A program made the position numbers and the translations under genes. Below the pieces are notes generated by a model. It did not search any database. It was not told where the DNA came from and saw only the letters and a program-made list of their open reading frames with translations. From Methanosarcina acetivorans C2A (GTDB taxonomy: Archaea > Halobacteriota > Methanosarcinia > Methanosarcinales > Methanosarcinaceae), in the NCBI RefSeq assembly GCF_000007345.1, contig NC_003552.1:372001-436000 (forward strand): a DNA stretch of 64,000 bases, read 5' to 3'. Each line of letters starts with the position of its first letter. The stretch's first letter is position 1. Shown piece after piece: positions 29,436 to 44,304 of the stretch.

Positions 29436-29951
29436 TTATCTTTTAATATTTACAAACAGCCTTTTTTTTGTGACCGGAATTAGCTTTTTCCATTCAACGA
29501 TGGCATCTTCGTAAAACTCGTATTCGTCTACAGTTTTATCCGATAATTTGCCATCCACCTCATATATATAAAAGCCCTCTTCTCCGTCCGTAGAGACGAC
29601 TTTTATCCTGTCTCCCATTTTCTTTACCTCTACAGCGGCTACACTTTTCAGGGCTTCAAGTAAACTCGTTCCCTCCTCCACCTCAAGCTTCCTGTTTTCT
29701 GCAAAACGGTCCAGAAAAGAATAGACATTATTCAACTTTATGCCTATCATATGAGTATTTCCGAACTTTTTCCTCTCTATGAGTTTGGCTTTTTCCAGCA
29801 CTTTCACATGTTTTGCAGCAACGGGCACGGAGATCCCTATTTCTCTTGCAAGCCCTGAGATGTGCTTATCCCCTTCACTCAGGCTTTCAAGAATAGAAAG
29901 ACGTGTGTCACTTGAGATTGCTTTGAAGAGATTTTCTCCGCCACCATTCAT
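29436..29951 (-). CDS. ArsR-type winged-helix regulator with a DUF4430-like C-terminal domain
   Basis: A 171-residue regulator. Residues ~1-75 are an ArsR-like winged helix (SSDTRLSILESLSEGDKHISGLAREIGISVPVAAKHVKVLEKAKLI). The C-terminal ~50 residues (STDGEEGFYIYEVDGK then VDEYEFYEDAIVEWKKL) resemble the DUF4430 pattern of W/FyyVNGk...v..y.l.dGD.VEW, which is the fold of the C-terminal domain of transcobalamin and intrinsic factor. It faces the DUF2162-ExbB-DUF2149-CobN operon. The resemblance is by eye only; it could be another small beta domain. Confidence 0.72.
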   Translation of the reverse strand: MNGGGENLFKAISSDTRLSILESLSEGDKHISGLAREIGISVPVAAKHVKVLEKAKLIERKKFGNTHMIGIKLNNVYSFLDRFAENRKLEVEEGTSLLEALKSVAAVEVKKMGDRIKVVSTDGEEGFYIYEVDGKLSDKTVDEYEFYEDAIVEWKKLIPVTKKRLFVNIKR

Positions 29952-30021
29952 ACTTTTATCCCTCTAGTACCTACTACCATGATGATCCTCTATTTTAGCT
30001 CAAATACTTATAATTATTGCC

Positions 30022-30038
30022 TTACTTAATACAAGTAA
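30022..30038. promoter_or_regulatory. Palindrome upstream of the ArsR-type regulator gene
   Basis: TTACTT-aatac-AAGTAA is a perfect inverted repeat about 70 bp before the regulator start. The half-site resembles that of the palindrome at 30452-30471, so both may bind the same regulator. Confidence 0.45.
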
Positions 30039-30039
30039 T

Positions 30040-30245
30040 ATATGCTCTTCACTTTTATACTTTTCTTTTTTTCCCTATGTTTTAACAAATTTACTTTATT
30101 GATCTTTCTATTGATATCTTTTTTTTTTAGATATTTTATCAAATTTACTTTCTTTACTTTTTTCATTCTTTCTATTCAATCCCTCATTTTGACAAGTTTA
30201 CTTTCATTTTTTCACATTCTCCCCTTCATTTATTGAAAATTTTCA
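30040..30245. other. Pyrimidine-rich tract
   Basis: The plus strand is strongly T/C-rich for about 200 bp, with the motif AAATTTACTTT or AAGTTTACTTT recurring three times (near 30090, 30140 and 30195). No gene is supported: the open plus frame is a low-complexity Phe/Leu run. It lies in the large divergent promoter region. Confidence 0.5.
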
Positions 30246-30451
30246 TGAGTTCACAGAGTGAATGATTGCATAATTTTTGTTAAATTCCGATTTTCATTTG
30301 CTATCAGTACCATACAATCCGATTTTTTAAAATTATTTTATATTAATACCTCTCCCGGAGATTTTTATTTCTCTGCCAATATTTTTCTCTTTCATTGGGG
30401 GCGACAACCGGGGATTTATACTTTTTTCTGAAAAACATAATCAATAGCCAT

Positions 30452-30471
30452 TGTTACCTTAAAAGATAACA
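30452..30471. promoter_or_regulatory. Operator-like palindrome before the DUF2162/ExbB/DUF2149 genes
   Basis: TGTTACCTTAAAAGATAACA is a near-perfect 20-bp palindrome 59 bp before the start at 30530. It lies downstream of a TATA-like TTTATACTT (about 30415-30423), so it would fall just after the expected transcription start. A repressor bound here would block the operon. Confidence 0.45.
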
Positions 30472-30529
30472 TTCATTACCCAAAAACCAGTTTTTATTTA
30501 ATCCTACTATAGATGCTCAGAAGGTACTT

Positions 30530-31219
30530 ATGGACTCTTCGACATTGACTGTTATCGGTATTTTGATAGGTATTCTTATCTTCGGGATTAAAACTGGATT
30601 AGGTTGTGGATTTTCAAATATCACTACGCGAGAGATTCTTACAATTGGCGGCAGTTATTTTTTTCTAGCTCTTTTATTCGGAAGTGTTGCTGACCACCTG
30701 AGCTTTGATGCTTTTGAGCGTCTTTCTGCAATGGGTATGGGAATCCATGTTCTTGTCTCCCTGCTCCTTATAGGGGCTGGCATCTATACCCAGAAAAAAT
30801 GGAATTCCGGAAAAGATGTTTCCAGACATACTTTCCTGGCCATATCAATGCCCTGTCCGGTCTGCCTGGGGGCTCTTGCAGTCTCCTGTATGCTCCTCTC
30901 ACAAAGCCTCAGCTATTCCGGGATAAAAATAGGGTTCCTTGTGGGAATTGCTTTTTTTATTGCAGTAGTAGCTTCTTCTTTTCTTTTCAGGTTCGGGAAG
31001 GTCCGGTGTGGAAAGACCCCCGAAACTATGGGAAGCGCCATGATGCTTCTCGGAATTTATTATCTTCTGGGAGCTCTGCTAATCCCAGCCTATATGAAAT
31101 CAAAACAGATGAACATGGCTCCTATGCAAACCGGAGAATCAGGCCTTTTTCCCCTTCTGGCTTTCGGGATAATAATCCTTGCAGGTTTTTTCCTTGACCG
31201 TGTGAGGTCTAACCAATGA
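30530..31219 (+). CDS. DUF2162 putative transporter
   Basis: A 229-residue membrane protein with about six or seven hydrophobic segments, matching the DUF2162 (predicted transporter) family. Cysteines occur in a conserved-looking loop (ISMPCPVCLGALAVSCM) and near GLGCGFSNIT, which might bind a metal or thiol. Its gene overlaps the ExbB-type gene by the ATGA junction and is first in the operon. The substrate is not known. The context of a chelatase-like protein and a proton channel suggests metal or corrinoid traffic. Confidence 0.8.
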   Translation: MDSSTLTVIGILIGILIFGIKTGLGCGFSNITTREILTIGGSYFFLALLFGSVADHLSFDAFERLSAMGMGIHVLVSLLLIGAGIYTQKKWNSGKDVSRHTFLAISMPCPVCLGALAVSCMLLSQSLSYSGIKIGFLVGIAFFIAVVASSFLFRFGKVRCGKTPETMGSAMMLLGIYYLLGALLIPAYMKSKQMNMAPMQTGESGLFPLLAFGIIILAGFFLDRVRSNQ

Positions 31220-31845
31220 GCAATATGGATCTGTTGTTCCGGACCATATACGTATTTTCATCGGCTTTACTGTATCCGGTAATGATACTTTTGACTCTAC
31301 TGGTCTTTGTTTCACTTATTCAGTTAGGAGAATTCCTTTCCGAATATTCAAAAAGAACCAGGGACCGGAACAGCCTGGAAGTTAGTTGCAAAAAAATCAG
31401 GCAAAGTCTTCATATTTCGGCTTTTTCGGAAGCATCGAAGGCTCTCCTGAATATAAAACAAAATTACATGGTCACGACCTTTGCAAAAGAGTCTGCACAA
31501 TACCTTGAAGATCAGAATTTCCCTGCGATCGGGAAGCTCTCCGAAGAATATGAGATAAGAATGGCAAAGCGCCTTGAGCACACGAAAATCATCTCAACTG
31601 TTGCTCCCATGCTCGGGCTTATGGGGACCCTTATCCCTCTCGGGCCTGCTCTAATAGGGCTTTCACAGGGAGACCTCGAAACCCTGGCACAGAATCTGAT
31701 GATCGCTTTTGCGACTACTGTTGTAGGGCTCTTTTCTGCCGGAATAGCCTATGTGCTTACCCAGGTCAGGAGGCGCTGGTACTGGGAGGACATGTCGGAT
31801 ATCGATTACATCCTGGATATCATCGAGGAAAAGAACGGAAATTGA
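31216..31845 (+). CDS. MotA/TolQ/ExbB-type proton channel protein
   Basis: A 209-residue membrane protein with three membrane segments. The C-terminal pair carries the family signature STVAPMLGLMGTLIPLGPALIGL followed by LAQNLMIAFATTVVGLFSAGIAYVL. The family couples ion flow to mechanical work with an ExbD/TolR/MotB partner. The next gene (DUF2149) supplies a plausible partner. Methanosarcina has no outer membrane, so the usual TonB role does not apply. Confidence 0.87.
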   Translation: MSNMDLLFRTIYVFSSALLYPVMILLTLLVFVSLIQLGEFLSEYSKRTRDRNSLEVSCKKIRQSLHISAFSEASKALLNIKQNYMVTTFAKESAQYLEDQNFPAIGKLSEEYEIRMAKRLEHTKIISTVAPMLGLMGTLIPLGPALIGLSQGDLETLAQNLMIAFATTVVGLFSAGIAYVLTQVRRRWYWEDMSDIDYILDIIEEKNGN

Positions 31846-31870
31846 CCGCTTTTTAATAAGGAGGAATATC

Positions 31871-32266
31871 ATGCGAAAATCCAGACGATACAGGCGGACC
31901 GGGCTTTTAAACGACCCTGAAGAGCAAAACCCCATGACTGGGGTTGCCAACCTCTTTGACGTTGCAATGGTCTTTTCCGTGGCTCTGCTCGTAGCTCTTG
32001 TGATGTCTTACCACCTCCCCGAACTTCTGAGCTCGAATGAGGACATTACAATTGTAAAAAACCCTGGAGCTGAGGACATGAAGATAATCATCAAGGATCA
32101 GGGAAAACCTATAGAAGTCCTTAACATGACCGAAAACATCGGGGGAGGCACAGGCGAAGCTCTGGGAACGGCTTATAAGCTGGCTGACGGCAGAGTGATT
32201 TACGTGCCTGAAGATTCGGAGGGGAATGAGACCTCCACTTCAAGTGGTACATCCACTTCAGATTAA
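31871..32266 (+). CDS. DUF2149 protein, ExbD/TolR-like
   Basis: A 131-residue protein: a basic cytoplasmic N-terminus, one membrane helix (about residues 27-48, NLFDVAMVFSVALLVALVM) and an extracellular domain with a Ser/Thr-rich tail. Asp30 at the start of the helix sits where ExbD, TolR and MotB carry their proton-binding Asp. ATG 31871 has GGAGG 7 nt upstream. It lies 25 bp behind the ExbB-type gene. The function is unproven; the ion-channel stator role is inferred from this residue and the context. Confidence 0.82.
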   Translation: MRKSRRYRRTGLLNDPEEQNPMTGVANLFDVAMVFSVALLVALVMSYHLPELLSSNEDITIVKNPGAEDMKIIIKDQGKPIEVLNMTENIGGGTGEALGTAYKLADGRVIYVPEDSEGNETSTSSGTSTSD

Positions 32267-32314
32267 TTTTTTTCAACAATTTACACAAGTTTAATTGTTT
32301 TATCTAAAATTTTC

Positions 32315-32457
32315 TTTAGTCACTCCCTTTAGTTACTCCCTTTAGTTACTCCCTTTAGTTACTCCCTTTAGTTACTCCCTTTAGTTACTCCCTTTAGTTA
32401 CTCCCTTTATTCCAGCCCTTTATTCCAGCCCTTTATTCCAGCCCTTTAGTTCCACCC
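32315..32457. repeat. 13-bp direct repeat array, 11 units
   Basis: Eleven contiguous 13-bp units: TTTAGTCACTCCC once, TTTAGTTACTCCC six times, TTTATTCCAGCCC three times and TTTAGTTCCACCC once. The array fills the space between the DUF2149 gene and the first CobN-like gene. The minus strand has GGG every 13 nt. It may bind a protein repeatedly, or be a slippage array that varies between strains. Confidence 0.9.
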
Positions 32458-32535
32458 GCAAATTATAAATCATCAAAACCCTAGCTGCCATCCTTTTTTT
32501 GAAGATCGGATGGTGGTGTTTCGTGAGCTGTATTT

Positions 32536-35500
32536 ATGTTTAGAAAGAAAGGCGAACCTGGAAGAAAACTCTTTTATGTGCTGATCCTGTTTTTATTATT
32601 TTCAGCACCTGTATCGGCAGAAGATAATAAGATCAATATAACCTATATTTCACTTTCACAAAGCGATGCGCTGGAGCTTGCCAGTCAGACCAACACATAC
32701 AGCGGCTCCATAGGATACACTTGGATCTCTGCATATAATTCCAGTACTTATGGGGCAAGTGACGAATTGCTTGCAGCAGGTGAGAGCGGATTTTTCGAGA
32801 CTCAGGATGTAGTTCTCTGTGATATGTTCTGGGAGCCCGTATATACACCAATGGAGGAAAGTTTCAAAGCAGCTTCTGACAACGGAACTGTATTCCTGGC
32901 TATTCGCTCCTCAGATACACCTTCTTATTTTGTTTATGATACAAACGGTTCTATTGATGACCCCATCTGTAATTACTACAATAACATGGGCACCAAAGGA
33001 GACGGACTCGAGAATGCGGAAAACCTGCTAATCTACCTTGCAACAGAATACGGAGGACTCTCGGAAACCGGTACTGATTCGCAAAATACTGATAATAACT
33101 CCGGCAACGAGTCTTTGGTGAATACTACTTCTCCCACTGCTTCTCTCCCCACTACCAACGCTACTGATTCTAGCAGCACGAATATGAACATAGGCAATAA
33201 ATTTCTGTTTATTCTGGGCACGGAATTCAACGACCCTGCCCTGAGCAATGCTGCATTAAATCCCGATATTTCATCGGAACTGGATATAACTATTTTCACA
33301 AAGAATGATTCGGTTCCTGAAGGGTTTGATTTCTCCGGATATTCGGTGATCTTTATCGAGTCTCAGGAAGAATCGGTATTTGAAGGCTGGGAGACAGGCA
33401 TAGCTTCTGCCAAAGCAAACGGTTCCATGGTCATAGGCTACGACCTCTCGTCCAATTTCACCCTCTCCAATGTTGACCTGTATTCTGAAAACTACACCGA
33501 TATCGAAAGGTACTGGGTGCAGGGCGGCGAAACAAACATGGAAAACATGCTCAAAGAAATGGGGCAGAAGTTTTCAGGTTCATGGACAAACGAAACCTTC
33601 ACACCGGAGATAGTGCAGGCAAAGACGAATATGACTTACATCATCAACTCTGACGTTGAAATATCTTTCATGGAGGATGTCCTTGCCGAAAGACAGGTGA
33701 TAACGGACAGGTTCAATGTCAAAGTTATGACAGGCACGGAAGCCATAAACAATGATATTGACGTATCAAACGATGATGTAATAATACTCTACATGGTGGG
33801 AGCTAACGAACTTCCTGAACTGAAGGATAAACTTCTTGAAGCTCAGGCCAACGGTGCACAGATAGGGATGTTCGGAATGCTGGCGGATGTGTACGGGATA
33901 GCAACGTTCGACATGGAAGCATCGCCGTATGATGTGTTGAAAGAATATCGCGTAAATAGCGGGTATGAGAATATGGAGAACTGGATCAGGTGTACCGGTG
34001 CGGTGCTTGAGGATGTTTATATACAGTACGCTCCTGCACAGGCACCTGATGTTCCGAAGAACGGTATATATCATCCGGATGCATTCCCAAGGATATTTGA
34101 GAACTGTACGGAATACCTTGGATGGTATGCTGAGCATGGGTATGACCCATCTGCCATCACAATAGGTATTATCAGTAACGATTTTGGACAGACCAATATC
34201 TCTTTCACAGCTGAGGATGCACTCATCCGGGAACTCAAGTCAAGAGGATGCAATGTCATTCACACGACAGATGATGTTTGCGCCGGAAATCTGGATATTT
34301 TTACCAGGGACGGAGAAGTACTGGTTGATGCGATCATTTCAATGAAAGGTTTTTACCTCAACTATGACGACCATGAGAAAGCAGTAGAATACCTGCAGGA
34401 AACGTACAATGTCCCTGTATTAAAAGCCGTTACTGATTATTATCAATCTCCTGAAGAATACCTTGCAAATACACAGGGACTCAGTTCCACTTCTATTCCT
34501 TCCCAGGTCACACAACCGGAAATAGACGGACTGACCGATTATATATGGATAGCAGGAAGGACTCAAAACGACGAAGGAACGTATTACTATGAACCTCTCA
34601 CGTACCAGGTTGAATGGATATGCGACAGGGCTATTTCCTGGGCAGAACTTGGAAAAATGGATAACGATGCCAAGAAAATCAGCATCATCTACTACAACCA
34701 TGAAGGCGGTAAAAACAACATCGGAGCCAGCTACCTTGATATCGGTTCAAGCTTCACCCTCCTGTTAGATGATATGCAGGCGGCCGGGTATGACCTTGGA
34801 AACAATAGCATTCCAAATGGAAGCGAATTCATTGACCTTTTCATAACGAGCAGAAATGTGGGGACATGGGCACCCGGAGAACTTGAAGAAGTCGTAGAGT
34901 CAGGCTACGTAACCCTGTTCCCTGTAGAGGAATACCTTGAATGGTACAGCACTCTGCCTGAAAGCGTCCGCGCAGAAGTCGAGGAAACATGGGGAGAAGC
35001 CCCTGGCGATGTCATGACCTATGAGAACGGGAGCGGAAAGTACTTTGTAATACCTACGATACAGCTTGGCAATATCAATTTCATACCCCAGCCGACAAGA
35101 TCAAAACTTTCCGATGAATCGCTCACATACCATAACTCATCGATACCTCCGACACACCAGTACCTTGCGACGTATTTCTGGATAAACAATGTATACGATG
35201 CCGATGCCATTATCCATTTCGGTACCCACGGTACGCAGGAATGGTTGCCGGGCAATGAAGTAGGATTGTGGAGATACGACTACCCGTCCCTCATGGTGGC
35301 TGAAACACCGGTTGTATATCCCTATATCATGGATAATGTAGGTGAAGGGACACAGGCAAAGCGCCGCGGTAACGCAGTTATAATCGACCACCTGACCCCA
35401 CCTATCGTTGAAGCCGGCCTCTACGGAGACCTTGCCACAATGCATGAGAAAATCCATAATTATGAGGATTCGAAGGTTGACAACGAAACCGAAATGATGG

Positions 35501-37737
35501 CACTGTACCGCAACAGTACGATACAACTCTATGACAATCTCAGCCTCGGAGAAGATCTCGGGGTTTCAACTGATGAATTGTCTGCCATGACAGATTCCGA
35601 ATTTGGGAACTTCCTTGACAGTGTGCTGCATGATTACCTGCACGAACTGCAGTCGGAACTCATGCCTTACGGTCTCCATGTATTCGGTGTTGCACCGGAA
35701 GACGAAAAACTTGTCTGTATGGTCAAATCCATGCTGGGTGATGATTTCACAGCCCATATCTATGCCGTGTTACCCGGGGACAGCGGAGATGACGAAGAGC
35801 GGGAAAATAAAGCGGATTCGGACGCCTTTTTACTTCTGAACGCTACTTTGCTCAATGGGACAAACGTGTCAACTGCCCAGCTTGAGATACTTAACCTTAC
35901 GAATGAAAGCATAACAGCAGACCTTGAACTGGCAACCGTGTATGCCAATAACCTTTCTCTGGCAACCCGTGAAATTGACCAGACCTTGAGAGCGCTAAAT
36001 GCGGAATACATCGAACCCGGAACCGGTAACGACCCGATACGTAATCCTGATGCTTTGCCCACAGGAAAGAACTTCTACAGCTTTGACCAGAGGACTATCC
36101 CGGATGAAGAGACCGAAGCCATGGGGCGTGCAGTTATCAACACGTGGCTTGACTCGTATTATGCAGAAAACGGCACCTATCCCACCAAAGTGGCCTTTGT
36201 CCTCTGGTCCGTTGAAACCATGCGCCATGAAGGACTGATGGAAGCACAGATTTACGAACTCCTTGGTGTGAATCTTAAAAGGACCAGCGGAAGGATAACA
36301 GGGTTTGAAGTTATTCCTGAGGAAGAGATGACGCACCCGAGAATTGATGTGTTGCTTGTGCCGTCGGGACTTTACCGTGACACTTTCCCGTACCAGCTTG
36401 AACTGATGGACAATGCGGTTCGCATGGTTGCCGACCTCAACGAGACGAATGAGACGAATTACGTCAGGATGAATTCGCTCATGATAGAAAGCGCAATGCT
36501 GGAAAGCGGGTACAATGAGAGTGTTGCACATTATATCTCAAGGTCCAGGATCTTCAGTGAAGCCGAAGGCACTTACGGTACCGGTGTGACAGAAGCCGTA
36601 GAGGCAAGTGATACATGGGAAAACACATCCGAGATTGCTGACCTGTTCATTTCCAGGATGTCAAATGTTTACGGAGCGGATGTATGGGGAGACAATTATG
36701 AGGATGTATTCAAGCTCAACCTGATGGAAGTAGATACAGCTATCCACAGTGATACGTCTAACCTCTACGGTCTCATGGACAACGATGACTACTACCAGTA
36801 TCTCGGCGGTCTCGGGCTTGCCGTAAAAACGCTGAGTGGTGTGGGTCCTTCAATGTTTGTTGCAGACTTCACAAGTGTGGACAACCCTGAGATAATCACC
36901 CTTGGAGAGGCCTTCAGTAAAGAGCTGACAGCCAGATACCTCAATCCGAACTGGCTTAACGGGATGATGGAGTATGATTATGCCGGGGCCAGGGAAATGA
37001 TGAAGGCTGTTGAGTATATGTGGGGCTGGGAGGCAACTACCCCTGACCTGGTAACGGATTCGGACTGGGACAAAATATATGAGACAATGATACTTGACTC
37101 GCAGAATGTCGGTGTGGACGAATTCCTTAAGGAAAATGCATACCAGTACCAGTCCATAACAGCGAGGATGATCGAAACCATAAGGAAAGATTCCTGGGAT
37201 GCTTCGGATGAAGTGCTGCAGAATCTGGTAGCCGAATACGTAGAATCTGTGGCTGAAAATGGGGTTACCTGCTGTCACCATACCTGTGGAAATTCCCTGC
37301 TTGACGACTATGTCCAGGGTATAATGTCCATTCCGGGGGTTGTTGATGAGGAAACAGCAGAAAAATATAAGGAACTGATGGAGGAAGCTACGCAAGCTTC
37401 TCAGTCTCCCAGTGAGAGCAGTAGCAGCAGTAGCAAAGGTCACCAGACAAGTGTTGCCGAAAAGCTCAACCAGACTTCTACAAGCAGTGCAGAAACTGCC
37501 AGCAATCAGACTGTTCAGGACTCAGACGCAGGATATGGTGTTGATTCTCCAGAGCTCGCTCCGGATGCCCGACAGGTTGCAGATTCCAATTACGTGGAGG
37601 GCTATGAGATGCAGAAAGAATCGGTTGAATCAGAAAGTAGTGGCATGTCTTTTTCGGGTGCAGACATTTTAGGGACCCTTTTTGTGCTGGTAGCAGCCGG
37701 TGGAATTTATCTGGGGTTCCGGAAAAAGAAGTTTTAA
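32536..37737 (+). CDS. Exported, membrane-anchored CobN/BchH-family chelatase-like protein (first copy)
   Basis: A 1733-residue protein related to the large subunit of cobalt and magnesium chelatases. A signal peptide (residues 1-29, ending APVSAED) precedes an N-terminal domain of ~140 residues, a Thr/Ser-rich linker and the CobN body. Body motifs include YYNHEGGKNNIGASYLDIG, HFGTHGTQEWLPG (from His894), NVGEGTQAKRRGNAVIIDHLTPP, RIDVLLVPSGLYRDTFPYQ and a CCHHTC motif (1579-1584). A Ser-rich stretch leads to a C-terminal membrane helix and RKKKF. Intracellular CobN needs CobS/CobT ATPases; none is here. The likely location is outside the cell. Substrate could be a corrinoid or another tetrapyrrole. 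Confidence 0.85.
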   Translation: MFRKKGEPGRKLFYVLILFLLFSAPVSAEDNKINITYISLSQSDALELASQTNTYSGSIGYTWISAYNSSTYGASDELLAAGESGFFETQDVVLCDMFWEPVYTPMEESFKAASDNGTVFLAIRSSDTPSYFVYDTNGSIDDPICNYYNNMGTKGDGLENAENLLIYLATEYGGLSETGTDSQNTDNNSGNESLVNTTSPTASLPTTNATDSSSTNMNIGNKFLFILGTEFNDPALSNAALNPDISSELDITIFTKNDSVPEGFDFSGYSVIFIESQEESVFEGWETGIASAKANGSMVIGYDLSSNFTLSNVDLYSENYTDIERYWVQGGETNMENMLKEMGQKFSGSWTNETFTPEIVQAKTNMTYIINSDVEISFMEDVLAERQVITDRFNVKVMTGTEAINNDIDVSNDDVIILYMVGANELPELKDKLLEAQANGAQIGMFGMLADVYGIATFDMEASPYDVLKEYRVNSGYENMENWIRCTGAVLEDVYIQYAPAQAPDVPKNGIYHPDAFPRIFENCTEYLGWYAEHGYDPSAITIGIISNDFGQTNISFTAEDALIRELKSRGCNVIHTTDDVCAGNLDIFTRDGEVLVDAIISMKGFYLNYDDHEKAVEYLQETYNVPVLKAVTDYYQSPEEYLANTQGLSSTSIPSQVTQPEIDGLTDYIWIAGRTQNDEGTYYYEPLTYQVEWICDRAISWAELGKMDNDAKKISIIYYNHEGGKNNIGASYLDIGSSFTLLLDDMQAAGYDLGNNSIPNGSEFIDLFITSRNVGTWAPGELEEVVESGYVTLFPVEEYLEWYSTLPESVRAEVEETWGEAPGDVMTYENGSGKYFVIPTIQLGNINFIPQPTRSKLSDESLTYHNSSIPPTHQYLATYFWINNVYDADAIIHFGTHGTQEWLPGNEVGLWRYDYPSLMVAETPVVYPYIMDNVGEGTQAKRRGNAVIIDHLTPPIVEAGLYGDLATMHEKIHNYEDSKVDNETEMMALYRNSTIQLYDNLSLGEDLGVSTDELSAMTDSEFGNFLDSVLHDYLHELQSELMPYGLHVFGVAPEDEKLVCMVKSMLGDDFTAHIYAVLPGDSGDDEERENKADSDAFLLLNATLLNGTNVSTAQLEILNLTNESITADLELATVYANNLSLATREIDQTLRALNAEYIEPGTGNDPIRNPDALPTGKNFYSFDQRTIPDEETEAMGRAVINTWLDSYYAENGTYPTKVAFVLWSVETMRHEGLMEAQIYELLGVNLKRTSGRITGFEVIPEEEMTHPRIDVLLVPSGLYRDTFPYQLELMDNAVRMVADLNETNETNYVRMNSLMIESAMLESGYNESVAHYISRSRIFSEAEGTYGTGVTEAVEASDTWENTSEIADLFISRMSNVYGADVWGDNYEDVFKLNLMEVDTAIHSDTSNLYGLMDNDDYYQYLGGLGLAVKTLSGVGPSMFVADFTSVDNPEIITLGEAFSKELTARYLNPNWLNGMMEYDYAGAREMMKAVEYMWGWEATTPDLVTDSDWDKIYETMILDSQNVGVDEFLKENAYQYQSITARMIETIRKDSWDASDEVLQNLVAEYVESVAENGVTCCHHTCGNSLLDDYVQGIMSIPGVVDEETAEKYKELMEEATQASQSPSESSSSSSKGHQTSVAEKLNQTSTSSAETASNQTVQDSDAGYGVDSPELAPDARQVADSNYVEGYEMQKESVESESSGMSFSGADILGTLFVLVAAGGIYLGFRKKKF

Positions 37738-37748
37738 ATTCCTGTGTG

Positions 37749-37782
37749 AAATACGGCGCAATATAACCGCCGTATTTTTTTC
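37749..37782 (+). terminator. Hairpin terminator after the first CobN-like gene
   Basis: AAATACGGCG (37749-37758) pairs perfectly with CGCCGTATTT (37768-37777), followed by a run of T. Copies of the same hairpin occur at 38106 and 44315. Confidence 0.8.
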
Positions 37783-37877
37783 TTTTTGTCTGTTCCGAAT
37801 CCATATTTTTTAGTTCGGTTTAATTGCAAACTTCTGGAATTAAATATCTGATGAGCCAGGAGTTCTAGTTATTTGGC

Positions 37878-37943
37878 ATGAAAGTACTTTATCTTTCATT
37901 TTTTGTGCCTGTTATTCAGAGAATTTCATGTTCGTTTTATCAG
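37878..37943. repeat. Dispersed hairpin repeat, copy 1
   Basis: Begins with the inverted repeat ATGAAAG...CTTTCAT and continues TTTTTTGTGCCTGTTATTC then a TTTCATGttCGTTTTAT end. Related copies are at 38197, 53613 and 63030. No ORF. Confidence 0.7.
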
Positions 37944-37981
37944 AATGCTCCAGGTTTTTGATACATTATATGGGGATAAAA

Positions 37982-38083
37982 ATGCAAGAAATATCTATAA
38001 TGATATCGATTTTTGTTTTATTCTTGTTAACCTCGTTATCCACTGCTCTGTATTTGTGGAGCCCGTACAGAATTCAGGAGTAA
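37982..38083 (+). CDS. Small membrane protein ORF, possible relic of a CobN-like C-terminus
   Basis: A 33-residue ORF with ATG behind GGGGAT at good spacing: a hydrophobic helix (SIFVLFLLTSLSTALYLW) and a short polar tail. The DNA at its end (ATTCAGGAGTAAAAAGTTTT then GTGAAATACGG) resembles the 3' ends of both CobN-like genes, and it has the same type of terminator. It is either a small membrane protein or the last trace of a third CobN-like gene. Confidence 0.35.
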   Translation: MQEISIMISIFVLFLLTSLSTALYLWSPYRIQE

Positions 38084-38105
38084 AAAGTTTTGTAATTGTA
38101 TGTGA

Positions 38106-38142
38106 AATACGGTACAAAATAATTCTTGCTGTATTTTTTCTT
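38106..38142 (+). terminator. Terminator hairpin, third related copy
   Basis: AAATACGG and CTGTATTT (with one G-U pair) flank a ~16-nt loop and are followed by a T-run. It is homologous in sequence to the terminators after both CobN-like genes. Confidence 0.6.
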
Positions 38143-38196
38143 TTTCCCGGCTTTGAGTCCGAATTTTTCCGAAATTCGACTTATTTTTGTCTTGAC

Positions 38197-38262
38197 ATGA
38201 AGGTACTTTCAATTACTTTCATTATTTGTTCCTGTTATTCGAAGAGTATCATGTGTGTTTTT
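38197..38262. repeat. Dispersed hairpin repeat, copy 2
   Basis: ATGAAGGTACTTTC...ACTTTCAT inverted repeat followed by TTGTTCCTGTTATTCGAAGA and ATCATGTGTGTTTTTTTA. It lies about 90 bp after a terminator, as copy 1 does, so terminator and repeat were duplicated together. Confidence 0.65.
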
Positions 38263-38593
38263 TTAATTAAGGCACATTTTCATCACAATTCTGGTGATAA
38301 TGTTGTAAAATTGCCTTTTTACTCTAACTGCTAACAATTATGAGCTGAAAACCGTCTTTTATATATTTTTTCCCACAATGCTTCAAATGTCGAATCTATT
38401 AAACAGAGTCGGTTGCTCTTTATTTTTTCTGGAAGTTCTGGAGTTGGATTTTATGTCGGAACCGAGAGCTTTTACTTTTATATTTAAATATTGACGGCTG
38501 TTTCTGTGTAAGTTCCGATATTAGAATAAATTTAAATTAAAATCATAATATGAACTCAGCACCCTGATCGTTTTTCTTCGGGGTGAAGGATTC

Positions 38594-38758
38594 ATGATAT
38601 TTTCTGGGGATAAGATGCATATGGCACAAAGTAGGTTTCTGTTTTTGCGTGCAGTGGTTCTTTTACTGCTAGCACGGAATGTATTGACTGCTGAAAAAAA
38701 GATAAATAACTGTAATTTTTCTTCCGTAAGGTTCCAGGACTCCTGGCAAATTAACTGA
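38594..38758 (+). CDS. Small exported ORF, possible N-terminal relic of a CobN-like gene
   Basis: A 54-residue ORF starting at ATG 38594 behind GGTGAAGGA and ending 8 bp before the second CobN-like gene. It has a signal-like hydrophobic core (FLFLRAVVLLLLARNVLTAE), then KKINNCNFSS, resembling the AEDNKINITYIS region after the signal peptide of the first CobN-like protein. It may be the leftover 5' end of a deleted third copy, or a translated leader. Confidence 0.35.
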   Translation: MIFSGDKMHMAQSRFLFLRAVVLLLLARNVLTAEKKINNCNFSSVRFQDSWQIN

Positions 38759-38766
38759 GGGATAAT

Positions 38767-41700
38767 ATGAATAAAATTCTCCATCTGTTGTTCCTTAGCG
38801 CATTTCTTTTTCTGGTGTTTACGCCAGGGGTGCTGGCAGAAGAACAAACAACAAATATAGCTTACATCAGCTACGCCCCAAATGAAGCACTTGAGAAGGC
38901 AAGTGAGACAAATGCTCATAGTGATCTCATCAATTACACCTTCATCAATTACTATAATGCAACTTCAAATGGAATAAGTGACGAGCTTCTGCAAGCAGCT
39001 GAAACCGGCTTTTTGGAAACTCAGGATGTCATTTTCTGTGATTATATCGGAAGCACAATTTTGGAAGATCCGGTAATAAATGAAACCCTGCTAAATGCTC
39101 ATAACAGGGGTACGGAACTGTATACCGTGAGGACAATGGGGAAGCCTCCTGATTACTTTGATTATATTTCCGATGGCAATTCTAACGACCCCATCTGCAA
39201 CTATCTTAACAACATGGGTACTGAAGGTGAAGGTCTTGAGAATGCAGAGAACTTGCTTTTTTATCTTTCAATTAAAAACAAAATAACTTATATCAGCTAC
39301 ATTCCCAATGAAGCACTTGAAAAGGCAAGTGAGACTAATGGTTATAGAGATTTCATTGAATACACCTTCATCAATTACTATAATGCTACTTCAAACGGAA
39401 TAAGTGACGAACTCCTTCAAGCCGCTGAAACTGGCTTTTTGGAAACCCAGGACGTCATTTTCTGTGATTATATCGGAAGCACAATTTTGGCTGATCCGGT
39501 AATAAATGAGACCCTGATAAGTGCCCATAACAGGGGTACGGAACTGTATACCGTGAGGACAATGGGTACGCCTCCTGATTACTTTGATTATATTTCCGAT
39601 GGAAATACTAACGACACTATATGCAACTATCTCAACAACACGGGTACCGAAGGTGAAGGTCTTGAGAATGCGGAAAATCTGCTGATACACCTTGTAAAAG
39701 ATAAACTAAATCTCCAGAATACTTCAGTTGTGGACAACGACACAAATGTAGACAGTAATGAGTTCTTATTTGTCCTGGGTACGGAGTTCAATGAGCTTGC
39801 CTTAGGTAATGCAGCTTCAAATACTAACGTTTCAGCCGAACTGAACATAACCATATTCACGCCTGATAATCCTGTGCCTGATGGCTTCGATTTCTCCGGG
39901 TATGGAGTTATTTTTCTCGAGTCACAGGACGAATCAGTGGTATCCGGCTGGACTTCGAGTATAAATTCTGCCAAAGCGGGAGGTTCGAAGGTCATAGGAT
40001 ATAACCTCTCATCAAATATCACCCTGCCGAATGTTGACCTGTATTCTGAGAACTACACGGAAATCGAAAGGTACTGGATACAGGGCGGTGAAACTAACAT
40101 GGAGAACATGCTCAGGGTCATGGGGCAGAAGTTTGCAGGTTTATGGACGGGAGAAGAGATCCCTGAGCCAGTGCTGATGCAGGAAAAAGTTAACATGACC
40201 TTCATTATTGGTGCTGACTCAAATGCATATTATCTCAGTAATGTCATCGATGAGAGAAGTGTGATCACTGATCTTTTCAACATAAACCTCATGAGTGGTA
40301 GCGATGCTGTTGCAAACTTCACTGATGCTTCAGACCAGGACTTCATAGTATTGTATATGATAGGCGCTGGTGACATATCCGCGTTGATGGACGTATTGTC
40401 CGATGCAAAGAACAATGGTGTACAGATCAGCCTCGGAAGTAGTGATGATGCATACGGGATAAGCACTATAGACACGCTCAATCCTCCTCATAATGTGATT
40501 GTGGACTATCTTGCTACTGACGGGGACACAAACATGGAGAATCTGATCCGTTACATGGCAGCAGAGCTTGATGATGTATATATACAATATTCACCTGTGG
40601 AGTCTCCGTCAATTCCAGACGATGGTATCTATCATCCGGATGCTTTTCCAAGGACCTTTGCGAACAGTACCGAATATCTGGAGTGGTATGCCAATCACGG
40701 GTATAACGAATCTGCACCCACAATAGGTATCATAAGCTACGAAATCCAAAAAGAACCTGTCTATCTTACTACGGACGATGCAATTATAAGGTATCTTGAA
40801 TCAAGGGGCTGCAATGTTATCTATACCACCGATCTGGTATGTAATGACGATGTTGATTATTTCACCAGAGATGGAGAAGTGCTTGTAGATGCTATTATCC
40901 ACCTGAAGGCTTTCTATTTGAATTATACCGATCAGGAAGCGGGTGTGGAATATCTTCAAAAATACAACGTGCCTATACTGAAAGGAGTACAGGATCCGTA
41001 CACAACACCGGATGAATACTATAACAGTACCCTTGGAATAGATACGATGAGCCTTCCGTCTATGGTAACGCAGCCTGAGATTGACGGGTGCCTTGATTTC
41101 ATCTGGATCAGTGGAAGCGTGGTTAATCCGGAAGATGATGATCAAACATATTATCAGCCTATTACAGGACAGGTACAATGGTTATGTGATCGTGCAATAG
41201 GATGGGCAGAACTTGGAAGGACCAGTAATAAGGACAAGAAAGTCAGCATCCTGTATTACAACCATGACGGAGGAAAGGAGAACATCGGTGCAAGTTACCT
41301 CGATATCGGTTCAAGTTTCACGTTACTGCTCGAACGGATGCAGGCAGAAGGCTATGATATAGGCAACGGTACCATCCCAAACGGCAGTGAGTTCATTGAC
41401 CTGTTCATCGAAAGCAGGAATGTCGGTGCATGGGCTCCCGGAGAACTTGAGAAGGTCGTCGATTCCGGCATGGCCACCCTCTTGCCTGTTGAGGAATATC
41501 TGCCCTGGTACAGCACTTTACCGGAATCTGTCAGAGCCGAAGTTGAGGAAACCTGGGGTGAAGCACCCGGCGATATAATGGTATATGAGAACGAGAGCGG
41601 GAAGTATTTCGTAATACCCACGGTGCAGCTCGGGAATGTCAACTTCATCCCGCAGCCAACCAAAGCAAAGCTCTCTGATGAATCCCTAATATATCATAAT

Positions 41701-44304
41701 TCTTCAATACCGCTAACGCACCAGTATCTTGCAGCGTACTACTGGATCAACGAAATATATGATGCCGATGCAATTGTCCACTTTGGAACACACGGGTCCA
41801 TGGAATGGTCCCCCGGAAAAGAAGTCGGCCTGTGGGAATATGACTATCCGTCAATCTGTGCAAATGACACACCTATAATATATCCGTACATTATGGACAA
41901 TGTTGGTGAAGGAAGCCAGGCCAAACACCGTGGTTTTGCAGTTATCATAGACCACCTGACCCCGCCAATCATCGAAGCCGGCCTCTATGGTGATCTTGCC
42001 ACGATGCATGATAAGATACACAGTTACACCAATTCAAGAAGCCTGAATGATACTGCAATGGCAGCAATGTATCGAAACACTACGACACAGTTGTATGAGA
42101 ACCTCAGCCTTGGAGTAGACCTGGGAGTTTCAACTGACGAATTGAATAATATGACAGACGATGAGTTTGAAGACTTTGTAAGTAATAATGTCCACGAATA
42201 TTTACATACACTGGAATCGGAACTCATGCCTTATGGTGTCCATATCTTTGGTGTGGCGCCTGAAGATGAAAAGCTCGTCTGTATGATAAAATCCATGCTG
42301 GGTGATGACTTTACAGATCATATCTATGATGTGCTGCCCGAGAACAACGGAACCGAGGAAGACCGGGACGATGAAGCAGATGCTGATGCGCTCTTGCTTT
42401 TGAATGAGACAATACTCAACGGAACAGGTGTCTCTGATGCCCAGCTCAAGGTACTGGGCCTCACAGATGACAATATAACAGCGGACCTTGAGCTGGCACT
42501 TGAATATTCCGAAAAGCTGGCTATGACAACCCGTGAGATAGACCAGACCATACGGGCACTGGATGCAGAGTACATAGAGCCCGGTGTAGGAAACGATCCG
42601 GTCCGCAACCCTGATGCAATACCAACAGGCAAGAACTTCTATGGTTTTGACGAGAGGAAATTCCCGGATGAAGAGACCAGTGCTATGGGTGCTATCCTTG
42701 CAGACCAGCTGGTAGCTGATTACTATGCCAATAATGGCGCTTACCCTAGCAAAGTGTCATACGTCCTCTGGGCCATGGAGACACTGCGCCATGGCGGACT
42801 TATGGAAGCCCAGATCCATTCTCTCCTGGGAGTCGAACCAATAAGAGATGACGGACGCATTACCGGTTTCAAAGTAATACCCCTGGAAGAGATGAACCAT
42901 CCCAGGATAGATGTACTGATCCATTCCTCTGGATTGTACAGGGATACCTTCCCCTATCAGCTGGAGCTGATCGATGAAGCTGTCCGCATGGTTGCCGGAC
43001 TGAACGAGACCAATGAAACAAACTACGTCAGATGGAATTCCTTAAAGATGGAAGATGCACTCCTGGAAAAAGGCTACAATGAGAGCCAGGCAGAGTACCT
43101 TTCAAGATGCAGGATCTTCAGCGAGGCCCCAGGAAACTATGACAACGGTATGGAAGATGCGATTGCAGCAAGTGATACCTGGGAGAATGAATCCGAACTC
43201 GCCGACCTGTTCATATCAACATCATCCTACATCTATGGACAGGATGTATGGGGAGATGGCTATGAAGATGTGTTCACTCTGAACCTCATGGATGTTGATT
43301 CAGCTGTGCACAGCGACTCATCGAACCTGTTCGGTCTGCTTGATGGTGACGGTTACTATGGTTATCTGGGAACTATCGGGCTTACAGTAAGGTCGCTCAC
43401 AGGAGAAACACCTGAATTGTATATAGCCAACCAGGAAAACACGGATGGTCTTGAGGTTATGACACTGAAGGAAGCATTGAGGACAGAGCTACGTTCAACT
43501 GACTTCAATCCTGCATGGATTACCGGGATGATGGAGGGTGATTATGCAGGTGCCAGACAGATAATGAAAGCGGTTGAATATTTGTGGGGATGGGACGTAA
43601 CGAATCCGGATATAATCACAGATTCTGACTGGGAGGAGATATATGACGTCTACATCAACGACAAGTACGACCTTGGTGTAGACGAGTTCCTGAAAACAGA
43701 GAATCCGTATCAATACCAGTCTATAACCGCAAGGATGCTTGAAACTGCAAGAAAAGGTTACTGGGATGCTTCCGAAGAAGTGATCCAGAGTCTGGTAAAA
43801 GAATATGCGGAATCCGTAGTTAAAGATGGGGTCACCTGCTGCCACCACACCTGTGGAAATTCCCTGCTTGATGAATACATTCAGGGCGTAATGTCAGTTT
43901 CTGGTGTTGTTGATGCGGAAACAGCAGAAAAATATAAGGAATTGATGCAGGAAGCTACACAAGCTTCTCAGTCGTCCAGTAAGAGCAGCAGTCACAGCAG
44001 CAAAGGACACCAGACAAGTGTTGCTGAAAAACTCAACCAGACCTCAAGCACCGGGGAATCGGTCAGCAACCAGACTGTTCAGGACTCGGATGCAGGTTAT
44101 GGGGTAGATTCTCCAGAGCCTGCGCCTGAAATGAAGAAAGCTGCAGATTCCAATTACGTGGAGGGCTATGAGATGCAGAAAGAGGCTGTTGAGGACAGCG
44201 AAAGCGGAGGTATGTCTTTCTCTGGCGCTGACATCCTTGGAACTCTCTTTGTGGTGATAGCAGCCGGTGGAATTTATCTGGGATTCAGGAAAAAGAAGTT
44301 TTAA
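38767..44304 (+). CDS. Exported, membrane-anchored CobN/BchH-family chelatase-like protein (second copy)
   Basis: A 1845-residue paralogue of the first copy. A signal peptide ends at about residue 24 (GVLAEE). The N-terminal ~140-residue domain occurs twice in tandem (about residues 31-171 and 172-312), nearly identical in DNA. The CobN body follows, with YYNHDGGKENIGASYLDIG, HFGTHGSMEW (from His1005), EGSQAKHRGFAVIIDHLTPP, RIDVLIHSSGLYRDTFPYQ and the CCHHTC motif (from Cys1691). The Ser-rich stretch and C-terminal helix with RKKKF match the first copy almost exactly. The ATG has GAGGG upstream. No ATPase partner is adjacent. Confidence 0.85.
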   Translation: MNKILHLLFLSAFLFLVFTPGVLAEEQTTNIAYISYAPNEALEKASETNAHSDLINYTFINYYNATSNGISDELLQAAETGFLETQDVIFCDYIGSTILEDPVINETLLNAHNRGTELYTVRTMGKPPDYFDYISDGNSNDPICNYLNNMGTEGEGLENAENLLFYLSIKNKITYISYIPNEALEKASETNGYRDFIEYTFINYYNATSNGISDELLQAAETGFLETQDVIFCDYIGSTILADPVINETLISAHNRGTELYTVRTMGTPPDYFDYISDGNTNDTICNYLNNTGTEGEGLENAENLLIHLVKDKLNLQNTSVVDNDTNVDSNEFLFVLGTEFNELALGNAASNTNVSAELNITIFTPDNPVPDGFDFSGYGVIFLESQDESVVSGWTSSINSAKAGGSKVIGYNLSSNITLPNVDLYSENYTEIERYWIQGGETNMENMLRVMGQKFAGLWTGEEIPEPVLMQEKVNMTFIIGADSNAYYLSNVIDERSVITDLFNINLMSGSDAVANFTDASDQDFIVLYMIGAGDISALMDVLSDAKNNGVQISLGSSDDAYGISTIDTLNPPHNVIVDYLATDGDTNMENLIRYMAAELDDVYIQYSPVESPSIPDDGIYHPDAFPRTFANSTEYLEWYANHGYNESAPTIGIISYEIQKEPVYLTTDDAIIRYLESRGCNVIYTTDLVCNDDVDYFTRDGEVLVDAIIHLKAFYLNYTDQEAGVEYLQKYNVPILKGVQDPYTTPDEYYNSTLGIDTMSLPSMVTQPEIDGCLDFIWISGSVVNPEDDDQTYYQPITGQVQWLCDRAIGWAELGRTSNKDKKVSILYYNHDGGKENIGASYLDIGSSFTLLLERMQAEGYDIGNGTIPNGSEFIDLFIESRNVGAWAPGELEKVVDSGMATLLPVEEYLPWYSTLPESVRAEVEETWGEAPGDIMVYENESGKYFVIPTVQLGNVNFIPQPTKAKLSDESLIYHNSSIPLTHQYLAAYYWINEIYDADAIVHFGTHGSMEWSPGKEVGLWEYDYPSICANDTPIIYPYIMDNVGEGSQAKHRGFAVIIDHLTPPIIEAGLYGDLATMHDKIHSYTNSRSLNDTAMAAMYRNTTTQLYENLSLGVDLGVSTDELNNMTDDEFEDFVSNNVHEYLHTLESELMPYGVHIFGVAPEDEKLVCMIKSMLGDDFTDHIYDVLPENNGTEEDRDDEADADALLLLNETILNGTGVSDAQLKVLGLTDDNITADLELALEYSEKLAMTTREIDQTIRALDAEYIEPGVGNDPVRNPDAIPTGKNFYGFDERKFPDEETSAMGAILADQLVADYYANNGAYPSKVSYVLWAMETLRHGGLMEAQIHSLLGVEPIRDDGRITGFKVIPLEEMNHPRIDVLIHSSGLYRDTFPYQLELIDEAVRMVAGLNETNETNYVRWNSLKMEDALLEKGYNESQAEYLSRCRIFSEAPGNYDNGMEDAIAASDTWENESELADLFISTSSYIYGQDVWGDGYEDVFTLNLMDVDSAVHSDSSNLFGLLDGDGYYGYLGTIGLTVRSLTGETPELYIANQENTDGLEVMTLKEALRTELRSTDFNPAWITGMMEGDYAGARQIMKAVEYLWGWDVTNPDIITDSDWEEIYDVYINDKYDLGVDEFLKTENPYQYQSITARMLETARKGYWDASEEVIQSLVKEYAESVVKDGVTCCHHTCGNSLLDEYIQGVMSVSGVVDAETAEKYKELMQEATQASQSSSKSSSHSSKGHQTSVAEKLNQTSSTGESVSNQTVQDSDAGYGVDSPEPAPEMKKAADSNYVEGYEMQKEAVEDSESGGMSFSGADILGTLFVVIAAGGIYLGFRKKKF

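Follow-up and report, generated by a model that had tools for sequence, protein, structure and literature searches.

HmuS of Bacteroides thetaiotaomicron is a membrane-bound enzyme, which removes iron from heme independently of ATP and for which His-538 is essential (PMC12583661). It is part of the HmuSTUV system of B. thetaiotaomicron and P. gingivalis (PMC12583661, PMC13227078, PMC10434189); in the published drawing, its neighbours HmuU, an ExbB protein, and HmuV, a DUF2149 protein (PMC10434189), energise the TonB receptor HmuR. The use of the archaeal HmuS homologues was left unclear, because complete hmu operons are lacking (PMC12583661). The ‘BtuS’ family is a third, exported type of CobN, recorded in Methanosarcina and linked to metalloporphyrin salvage (Rodionov 2003 as cited in PMC6460266; PMC10846266). 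In M. barkeri, BtuS proteins were detected by proteomics and respond to the Fe/S source; the same paper described the remainder of the operon as missing (PMC10846266). A transport cluster of Trichlorobacter (Geobacter) lovleyi, pGLOV01/pSZ77, also includes a CobN, previously thought to be tied to corrinoid transport (PMC3403914). Here we describe a locus of this kind in Methanosarcina acetivorans C2A: the window, i.e., the whole analysed stretch of 64,000 nucleotides (NC_003552.1, positions 372,001 to 436,000), carries genes for two exported CobN-type proteins, CobN1 and CobN2, downstream of genes for a DUF2162 membrane protein, an ExbB-family ion channel and a DUF2149 protein.

The system belongs to the known HmuSTUV/BtuS kind, with which it shares the core of exported CobN, ExbB and DUF2149; an earlier note on this DNA, made from the letters alone, did not mention this kinship. 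With a probability of roughly 0.6, we read the locus as encoding a gradient-driven, outward-facing and membrane-anchored chelatase-type enzyme with its own stator, used to salvage metal-tetrapyrroles, the core of a cross-domain family of which HmuSTUV would be the studied member.

Kinship with HmuS and export of the CobN proteins

The best solved relative of CobN1 is HmuS (PDB 9d26, 1e-128), and the alignment continues into a C-terminal extension that the alignments with CobN and ChlH do not reach. In trees built with FastTree (93 rows) and IQ-TREE quick (38 rows), which included cytoplasmic CobN from M. acetivorans, Haloarcula, Streptantibioticus and Sphingobium as well as ChlH, the exported CobNs and HmuS form a single group with support 100, apart from cytoplasmic CobN and ChlH. 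CobN1 and CobN2, which are 66% identical, each span the full Pfam CobN/Mg-chelatase profile, and both score under the curated CobN equivalog cut-offs (1359 and 1312 against 1619 bits at best; for TIGR02257, 583 and 565 against 822).

The hydropathy of the sequence shows a signal-like segment at the N terminus of both proteins and, at the C terminus, a hydrophobic helix with RKKKF at its end; the CobN-type protein of HmuSTUV is likewise exported and anchored twice in the membrane. An N-terminal hydrophobic segment is present in 93 of 97 fetched relatives and a C-terminal one in 88; those without the latter are mostly clipped by locus or contig ends. The main features of the locus, all on the plus strand, are as follows (window positions):

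30530-31219, plus: DUF2162 membrane protein with 7-8 helices, a candidate permease (Pfam PF09930, 1e-73)
31216-31845, plus: MotA/TolQ/ExbB-family ion channel, stator A subunit (Pfam PF01618, 1e-12, residues 110-183; 48 bits, cut-off 22.9)
31871-32266, plus: DUF2149 protein (Pfam PF09919, 9e-35), by position the counterpart of ExbD/MotB and equivalent to HmuV of Bacteroidota
32536-37737, plus: exported CobN1, 1733 residues, with signal segment, repeated head domains, class I chelatase body (470-1560), Cys/His tail and C-terminal helix (Pfam 1118 bits)
35215-35232, plus: HFGTHG motif of CobN1, whose His is the equivalent of the essential His-538 of HmuS (HmuS alignment and column table)
37270-37293, plus: CCHHTCGN motif of CobN1, in the C-terminal extension
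38767-44304, plus: exported CobN2, 1845 residues (Pfam 1128 bits), with a degenerate D/Q motif (LDGDGYYGYLGT)
43837-43860, plus: CCHHTCGN motif of CobN2

The earlier note had described two CobN proteins of 1733 and 1845 residues with signal segments and basic-tailed C-terminal helices, preceded by DUF2162, ExbB and DUF2149 genes, and open reading frames, Pfam matches and hydropathy agree with this description. The DUF2162 and ExbB genes overlap by 4 bases and a gap of 25 bases separates ExbB from DUF2149, for which 31871, with AGGAGG just 5' of it, is most likely the true start; a start at 31751 is disfavoured by comparison. Two open papers on the surface proteomics of Methanosarcina name no CobN.

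The cytoplasmic CobNST and ChlHID systems share the CobN/ChlH body and the HFGTHG-type His with the exported proteins, but are cytoplasmic, ATP-driven and outside the exported clade. HmuSTUV is closer: it likewise has ExbB and DUF2149 genes alongside, HFGTHG, a place in the same clade and the C-terminal extension, where most members have a Cys motif. In contrast to the archaeal loci, it also has HmuY and a TonB receptor, as well as HmuT where the archaea have DUF2162, without detectable homology between the two; DHxxEF and CxxxxC in HmuSTUV stand against DDxxQY and CCHHTC in the archaeal proteins, which also have extra head repeats. As for the ‘BtuS’ operon of M. barkeri, whose remainder was taken as lacking (PMC10846266), ExbB, DUF2149 and DUF2162 do adjoin exported cobN here.

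Stator genes beside exported cobN

The complete genome (5,751,492 bp) contains 12 CobN loci, ten of the exported type (one of them a pseudogene) and two cytoplasmic, the latter at 1.036 and 1.052 Mb and adjoining ATP-binding cassette (ABC) transporters. ExbB, DUF2149 and DUF2162 are each present in exactly three copies in the genome, and these nine genes are grouped as three modules, at 402.5-404.2 kb (in the window), 5470-5472 kb and 5726-5728 kb. Because every one of these genes in 5.75 Mb falls in a module beside exported cobN, a chance grouping is excluded. Over the cut-off, there is exactly one cobalto/Mg-chelatase ATPase genome-wide (TIGR02442, 942 bits, 1,045,707-1,047,710), about 6 kb from one cytoplasmic CobN and 0.63 Mb from the window; a chelatase ATPase partner is absent from the window locus. 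Since the stators all adjoin exported cobN and the lone ATPase adjoins a cytoplasmic CobN, the exported CobNs have stators but no visible ATPase. The earlier claim of a missing ATPase partner holds at the locus; the note missed the ATPase by the cytoplasmic CobN.

Four exported cobN genes of this genome lie in a run at 448.7-470.5 kb (L009, L010), with a ZIP-family metal transporter at the head (L010:14236-15003). The pseudogene, interrupted by stop codons, lies at about 5,460.2-5,464.4 kb (L014:8163-12353) and adjoins an intact copy.

The association extends across archaea. In a sample of 246 archaeal (Halobacteriota) genomes, in which exported CobN was scored by strong full-length matches to a profile of the exported-specific tail (A4), DUF2149 occurs in 73: 67 genomes have both, six DUF2149 only, one the tail only and 172 neither (Fisher p 5e-52, uncorrected for kinship). 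Counted by genus from the same genome lists, the numbers are 22, three, zero and 74. Among 86 DUF2149 loci, ExbB is adjacent on the same strand in 85, DUF2162 lies within 1.5 kb in 75 and CobN within 5 kb in 69; these loci were collected through DUF2149, a bias from which the whole-genome table alone is exempt. The earlier note had named cytoplasmic CobN-like proteins, or stator genes that do not co-occur with exported CobN, as what would speak against it; the export segments and the 67/6/1/172 table point the other way.

Neither an HmuY hemophore nor a TonB-dependent receptor was found in the archaeal loci examined, the window included. The ExbB-DUF2149 motor probably serves CobN itself, contrary to the published Hmu drawing, because archaea without an outer membrane and without an adjoining TonB receptor keep it beside CobN; the comparative argument for this coupling rests also on the motor occurring nowhere else in the M. 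acetivorans genome. The T. lovleyi cluster has the identical order DUF2162-ExbB-DUF2149-CobN (PMC3403914), but differs in its two TonB receptors, its separate ExbB-ExbD-TonB set and its tandem cobalamin riboswitches: the full arrangement is TonB receptor-DUF2162-ExbB-DUF2149-CobN-ExbB-ExbD-TonB-TonB receptor, amid cobamide and cobalt-transport genes. As a separate ExbB-ExbD-TonB set is present, ExbB-DUF2149 is not simply a TonB energiser.

DUF2149 has one transmembrane helix, with an invariant NLFD at its start in all members, followed by an outer part that is predicted to be beta-rich. ExbB-DUF2149 resembles ExbB-ExbD, TolQ-TolR and MotA-MotB in its ExbB-family channel and, apparently, in a comparable partner, with one helix and an invariant Asp where this helix begins, but DUF2149 lacks detectable sequence homology to ExbD and requires no TonB or receptor. 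A profile comparison, for which a single ExbD sequence was used, did not detect DUF2149 as an ExbD homologue, and the AlphaFold model is poor (predicted local distance difference test, pLDDT, 59), so that its fold matches are meaningless. Invariant residues of DUF2162 are K21, G27, P108-C109-P110-x-C112 (PCPxC), G168 and P186. Its AlphaFold model (pLDDT 85.7) has no significant match in the PDB, and a weak match of one member to Mntp of the LysE superfamily (5e-4) is a hint only. A single family of HmuT and DUF2162 was rejected (hhalign probability 10%).

Proposed mechanism, substrates and alternative explanations

In the mechanism that we propose, CobN would bind a metal-tetrapyrrole outside the cell, with the head domains capturing it and the body cavity providing the site of reaction. 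At the HFGTHG site, the metal might be removed or exchanged and then passed on, perhaps via the CCHHTC tail, and DUF2162 would be the likely permease that brings the released metal (or the ring) into the cell. ExbB-DUF2149 could convert the ion gradient into a movement that opens and resets CobN, in the role of the CobS/CobT or ChlI/ChlD ATPases. Because the ten exported cobN loci of M. acetivorans share three motor modules, the paralogues probably differ in the ring or the metal (Co, Ni, Fe) that they serve. A corrin-like ring is the best single guess for the CobN1 type.

The chelatase body motif is HFG(T/A)HG; it reads HFGTHG in both CobN1 and CobN2, and its His is retained in nearly all exported members. 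At the opposite side of the site, HmuS and ChlH have DHxx(E/D), whereas most archaeal members, Trichlorobacter and a Comamonad have DDxxQ as in classical bacterial CobN; DHxx(E/T) is carried by one archaeal clade (L076, L080, L090, L112, L129). The HmuS motif LSLDHxxEFMGG (His-1209, Glu-1212) is absent from both window proteins, CobN1 reading LMDNDDYYQYLGG and CobN2 LDGDGYYGYLGT. In the columns of the HmuS heme ligands Met-79 and His-254, CobN1 has V and G and CobN2 I and A, in a head region that aligns poorly. In the C-terminal extension, nearly all archaeal proteins carry CCHHTCGN; Trichlorobacter has CCDHTCNN there, and several Bacteroidota have CxxFVCxN. Some exported members, which lack both the catalytic His and the D-D/Q motif opposite it, form a clade of their own (L009:12684-17309, at about 448.7-453.3 kb of the genome; L060, L083, L117, L126, L134, L163); by these residues, they appear to be pseudo-chelatases that are retained across genera. 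The variation of the active site may thus reflect a diversification of substrates together with paralogues that only bind.

Bacterial relatives lie in varied metal contexts. The Bacteroidota core loci have HmuY and a TonB receptor and hence a heme context. In a Comamonad, a cobalamin riboswitch lies about 90 bp 5' of ExbB-DUF2149-CobN, and in Azospirillum CobN-ExbB-DUF2149 is followed by a riboswitch ahead of a transporter set, with nikR close by. Runella presents a nickel setting (hypABF, TonB receptor, NicO/DsbD-like permease, ExbB, DUF2149, CobN, hypCDE). A Prevotellaceae bin has an exported-looking CbiK, CobN, HmuT-like/ExbB and DUF2149, then CobB, adenosyltransferase, CbiB and CobS; the CbiK-type cobaltochelatase of this cobamide cluster (L156:4366-5187) has an apparent signal peptide and lies directly 5' of exported CobN. 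Archaeal loci are at times near CbiM, a tetrapyrrole methylase or a B12/siderophore-type binding protein. As bacterial and archaeal loci differ in the third gene (DUF2162, HmuT or NicO-like), which is therefore exchangeable, and CobN, ExbB and DUF2149 persist, the last three constitute the core.

DDxxQY is ruled out as a strict corrin marker, because the HmuS motif occurs in the CobN of the Prevotellaceae cobamide cluster, and DHxxEY in Azospirillum, where a riboswitch is close by. Riboswitches were found in none of the loci of Acidobacteria, Planctomycetes, Deltaproteobacteria, Prevotella and some archaea, so that the link to B12 is not general; a riboswitch search of the window region found no cobalamin riboswitch near its genes. 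The earlier idea, a surface system for stripping, inserting or capturing a metal-tetrapyrrole whose sole visible energy source is the stator, finds good support in the co-occurrence, the tree and HmuS; a corrinoid as substrate is not required, given sister contexts of heme, cobalamin riboswitches and nickel hydrogenase.

Several points weigh against an enzyme powered in this way. The HmuS residues His-1209 and Glu-1212 are not retained in the archaeal proteins, and His-254 appears not to be; part of the active-site motif is gone in CobN2, and one exported clade, which includes an M. acetivorans copy, has lost the catalytic His. Heme still gave rise to free porphyrin in btuS1 btuS2 double mutants of B. 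fragilis (PMC6460266). A few DUF2149-ExbB pairs of archaea adjoin large beta-helix/CARDB surface proteins and no CobN. Moreover, we infer the dechelatase activity of the archaeal proteins and the contact between ExbB-DUF2149 and CobN by comparison.

There is some room for a different function, in which exported CobN would be a corrinoid or tetrapyrrole receptor without chemistry and the stator and DUF2162 would import the whole ring, e.g., for B12 uptake. Relatives governed by cobalamin riboswitches (L056, L192; compare the cobamide genes at L156), the CobN-type DDxxQY motif, the repeated head domains and the conserved clade without catalytic His, which fits binding without catalysis, are in line with this explanation. 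We nevertheless consider it unlikely: the His that is essential in HmuS is present in most paralogues, the sole studied relative is an enzyme, and the NicO-like nickel permease in the place of DUF2162 in Runella fits a free metal better than an intact ring.

Another possible function of ExbB-DUF2149-DUF2162 is that of a general energiser of archaeal surface proteins, loosely tied to CobN. In some genomes of the anaerobic methanotroph (ANME) type, ExbB-DUF2149 lies by NosD/CARDB or PQQ-repeat surface proteins with no CobN near, and 17 of the 86 loci have no CobN within 5 kb. Against this, exported CobN is present in 67 of the 73 DUF2149 genomes and DUF2149 is missing from just one of the 68 genomes with exported CobN, which makes a general energiser improbable. 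In L070, L074 and L075, for example, ExbB-DUF2149 adjoins very large surface proteins (NosD/beta-helix, CARDB or PQQ-repeat) and no CobN; there, a second use of the stator is possible.

An insertion of cobalt or nickel into metal-free rings from the medium, outside the cell, is very unlikely: the older relatives CobN and ChlH do insert metal, and the Prevotellaceae locus also has a CbiK-family cobaltochelatase with an apparent signal peptide, but insertion by class I chelatases requires an AAA+ ATPase partner, which is absent at the locus, metal-free rings are scarce nutrients, and HmuS works in the opposite direction.

Leader element, neighbouring features and significance

In Methanosarcinaceae, the 5' leaders of exported cobN genes contain a hairpin of nine pairs with the invariant loop letters GCC-N-NCAAGCAA, and 3' of it a GTTATC-N4/5-GATAAC dyad that covers the Shine-Dalgarno region together with the start codon. 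Seven of the nine stem pairs covary with pairing kept, a signal that is lost when the partner is slid. The loop is occasionally reverse-complemented (L064, L148), so that the element might instead be a DNA operator. A search of Rfam at E up to 1 matched no family. A covariance model, built from exported cobN leaders and searched against whole genomes, gave 43 matches in 197 archaeal genomes, all in Methanosarcinaceae, the family of the window organism; examples from other loci are:

L062:9881-9955: leader element
L135:10423-10495: leader element

The fetched loci hold 43 matches above E 0.005, 35 of them at the start of a CobN open reading frame and the other eight, as far as readable, at truncated or decayed CobN frames or contig ends. 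M. acetivorans has one match (L016:8426-8498, genome 5,728,425-5,728,497), before the cobN of the third module, and the leaders of the two cobN genes in the window do not match the model. By its sequence pattern, the leader is a candidate for a new cis-regulatory element specific to exported cobN genes.

The window locus has further features:

29436-29951, minus: winged-helix regulator of the ArsR/SmtB type, divergent from the module (Pfam HTH_5, 3e-8)
38615-38766, plus: probable decayed start of a third cobN between CobN1 and CobN2, a GGGGATAAGATG leader with the signal-peptide-like reading MHMAQSRFLFLRAVVLLLLARNVLTAEKK
38887-39246, plus: head domain copy 1 of CobN2, residues 41-160 (self-alignment score 575 to residues 183-302)
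39313-39672, plus: head domain copy 2 of CobN2, residues 183-302 (self-alignment)

The regulator, which the earlier note rightly saw facing the module, scores under the NCBIfam cut-off for ArsR metalloregulators; the same divergent gene stands at the equivalent place in the Methanosarcina loci L058, L065, L066, L077 and L094. For comparison with the decayed cobN start, the paralogue L010:9502-13860 begins MHTARSRLLVLCAVFFLLFAQNVSADEN. The head domain of CobN2 (about 140 residues) has undergone a recent tandem duplication (38887-39672). In the g16 genomes (L083:11562-13634, L091:11556-13580), a multi-helix membrane protein directly 5' of the module presumably resembles a membrane pyrophosphatase.

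A wider proposal can be put forward tentatively. ExbB-DUF2149 might be a motor, of the rotary or the lever type, whose sole task is to drive extracytoplasmic CobN in extracting (or inserting) metal. This would be a third way to power a chelatase, which runs on the ion gradient from outside the cell and dispenses with an AAA+ ring; it would be common to archaea and bacteria, with separate adaptations to the iron of heme, the cobalt of corrinoids and nickel. The role of HmuU and HmuV as energisers of HmuR would then be wrong, and in Methanosarcinaceae a new leader element of RNA or DNA, which might sense tetrapyrroles, would control the enzymes.

The core of exported CobN, ExbB and DUF2149 is conserved in archaea, against the published impression of a missing operon (PMC12583661, PMC10846266). 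The persistence of the motor by CobN without TonB receptor or outer membrane predicts that HmuU and HmuV act on HmuS, and not (or not only) on the outer-membrane receptor. If the proposed function is true, DUF2149 and DUF2162, two unnamed families, would become parts of one machine, and methanogens would gain cobalt, nickel and iron from the rings of dead cells. The occurrence of the same enzyme-motor pair in gut and soil bacteria, by genes for iron, cobalt or nickel, points to a common and little-studied route of metal harvesting.

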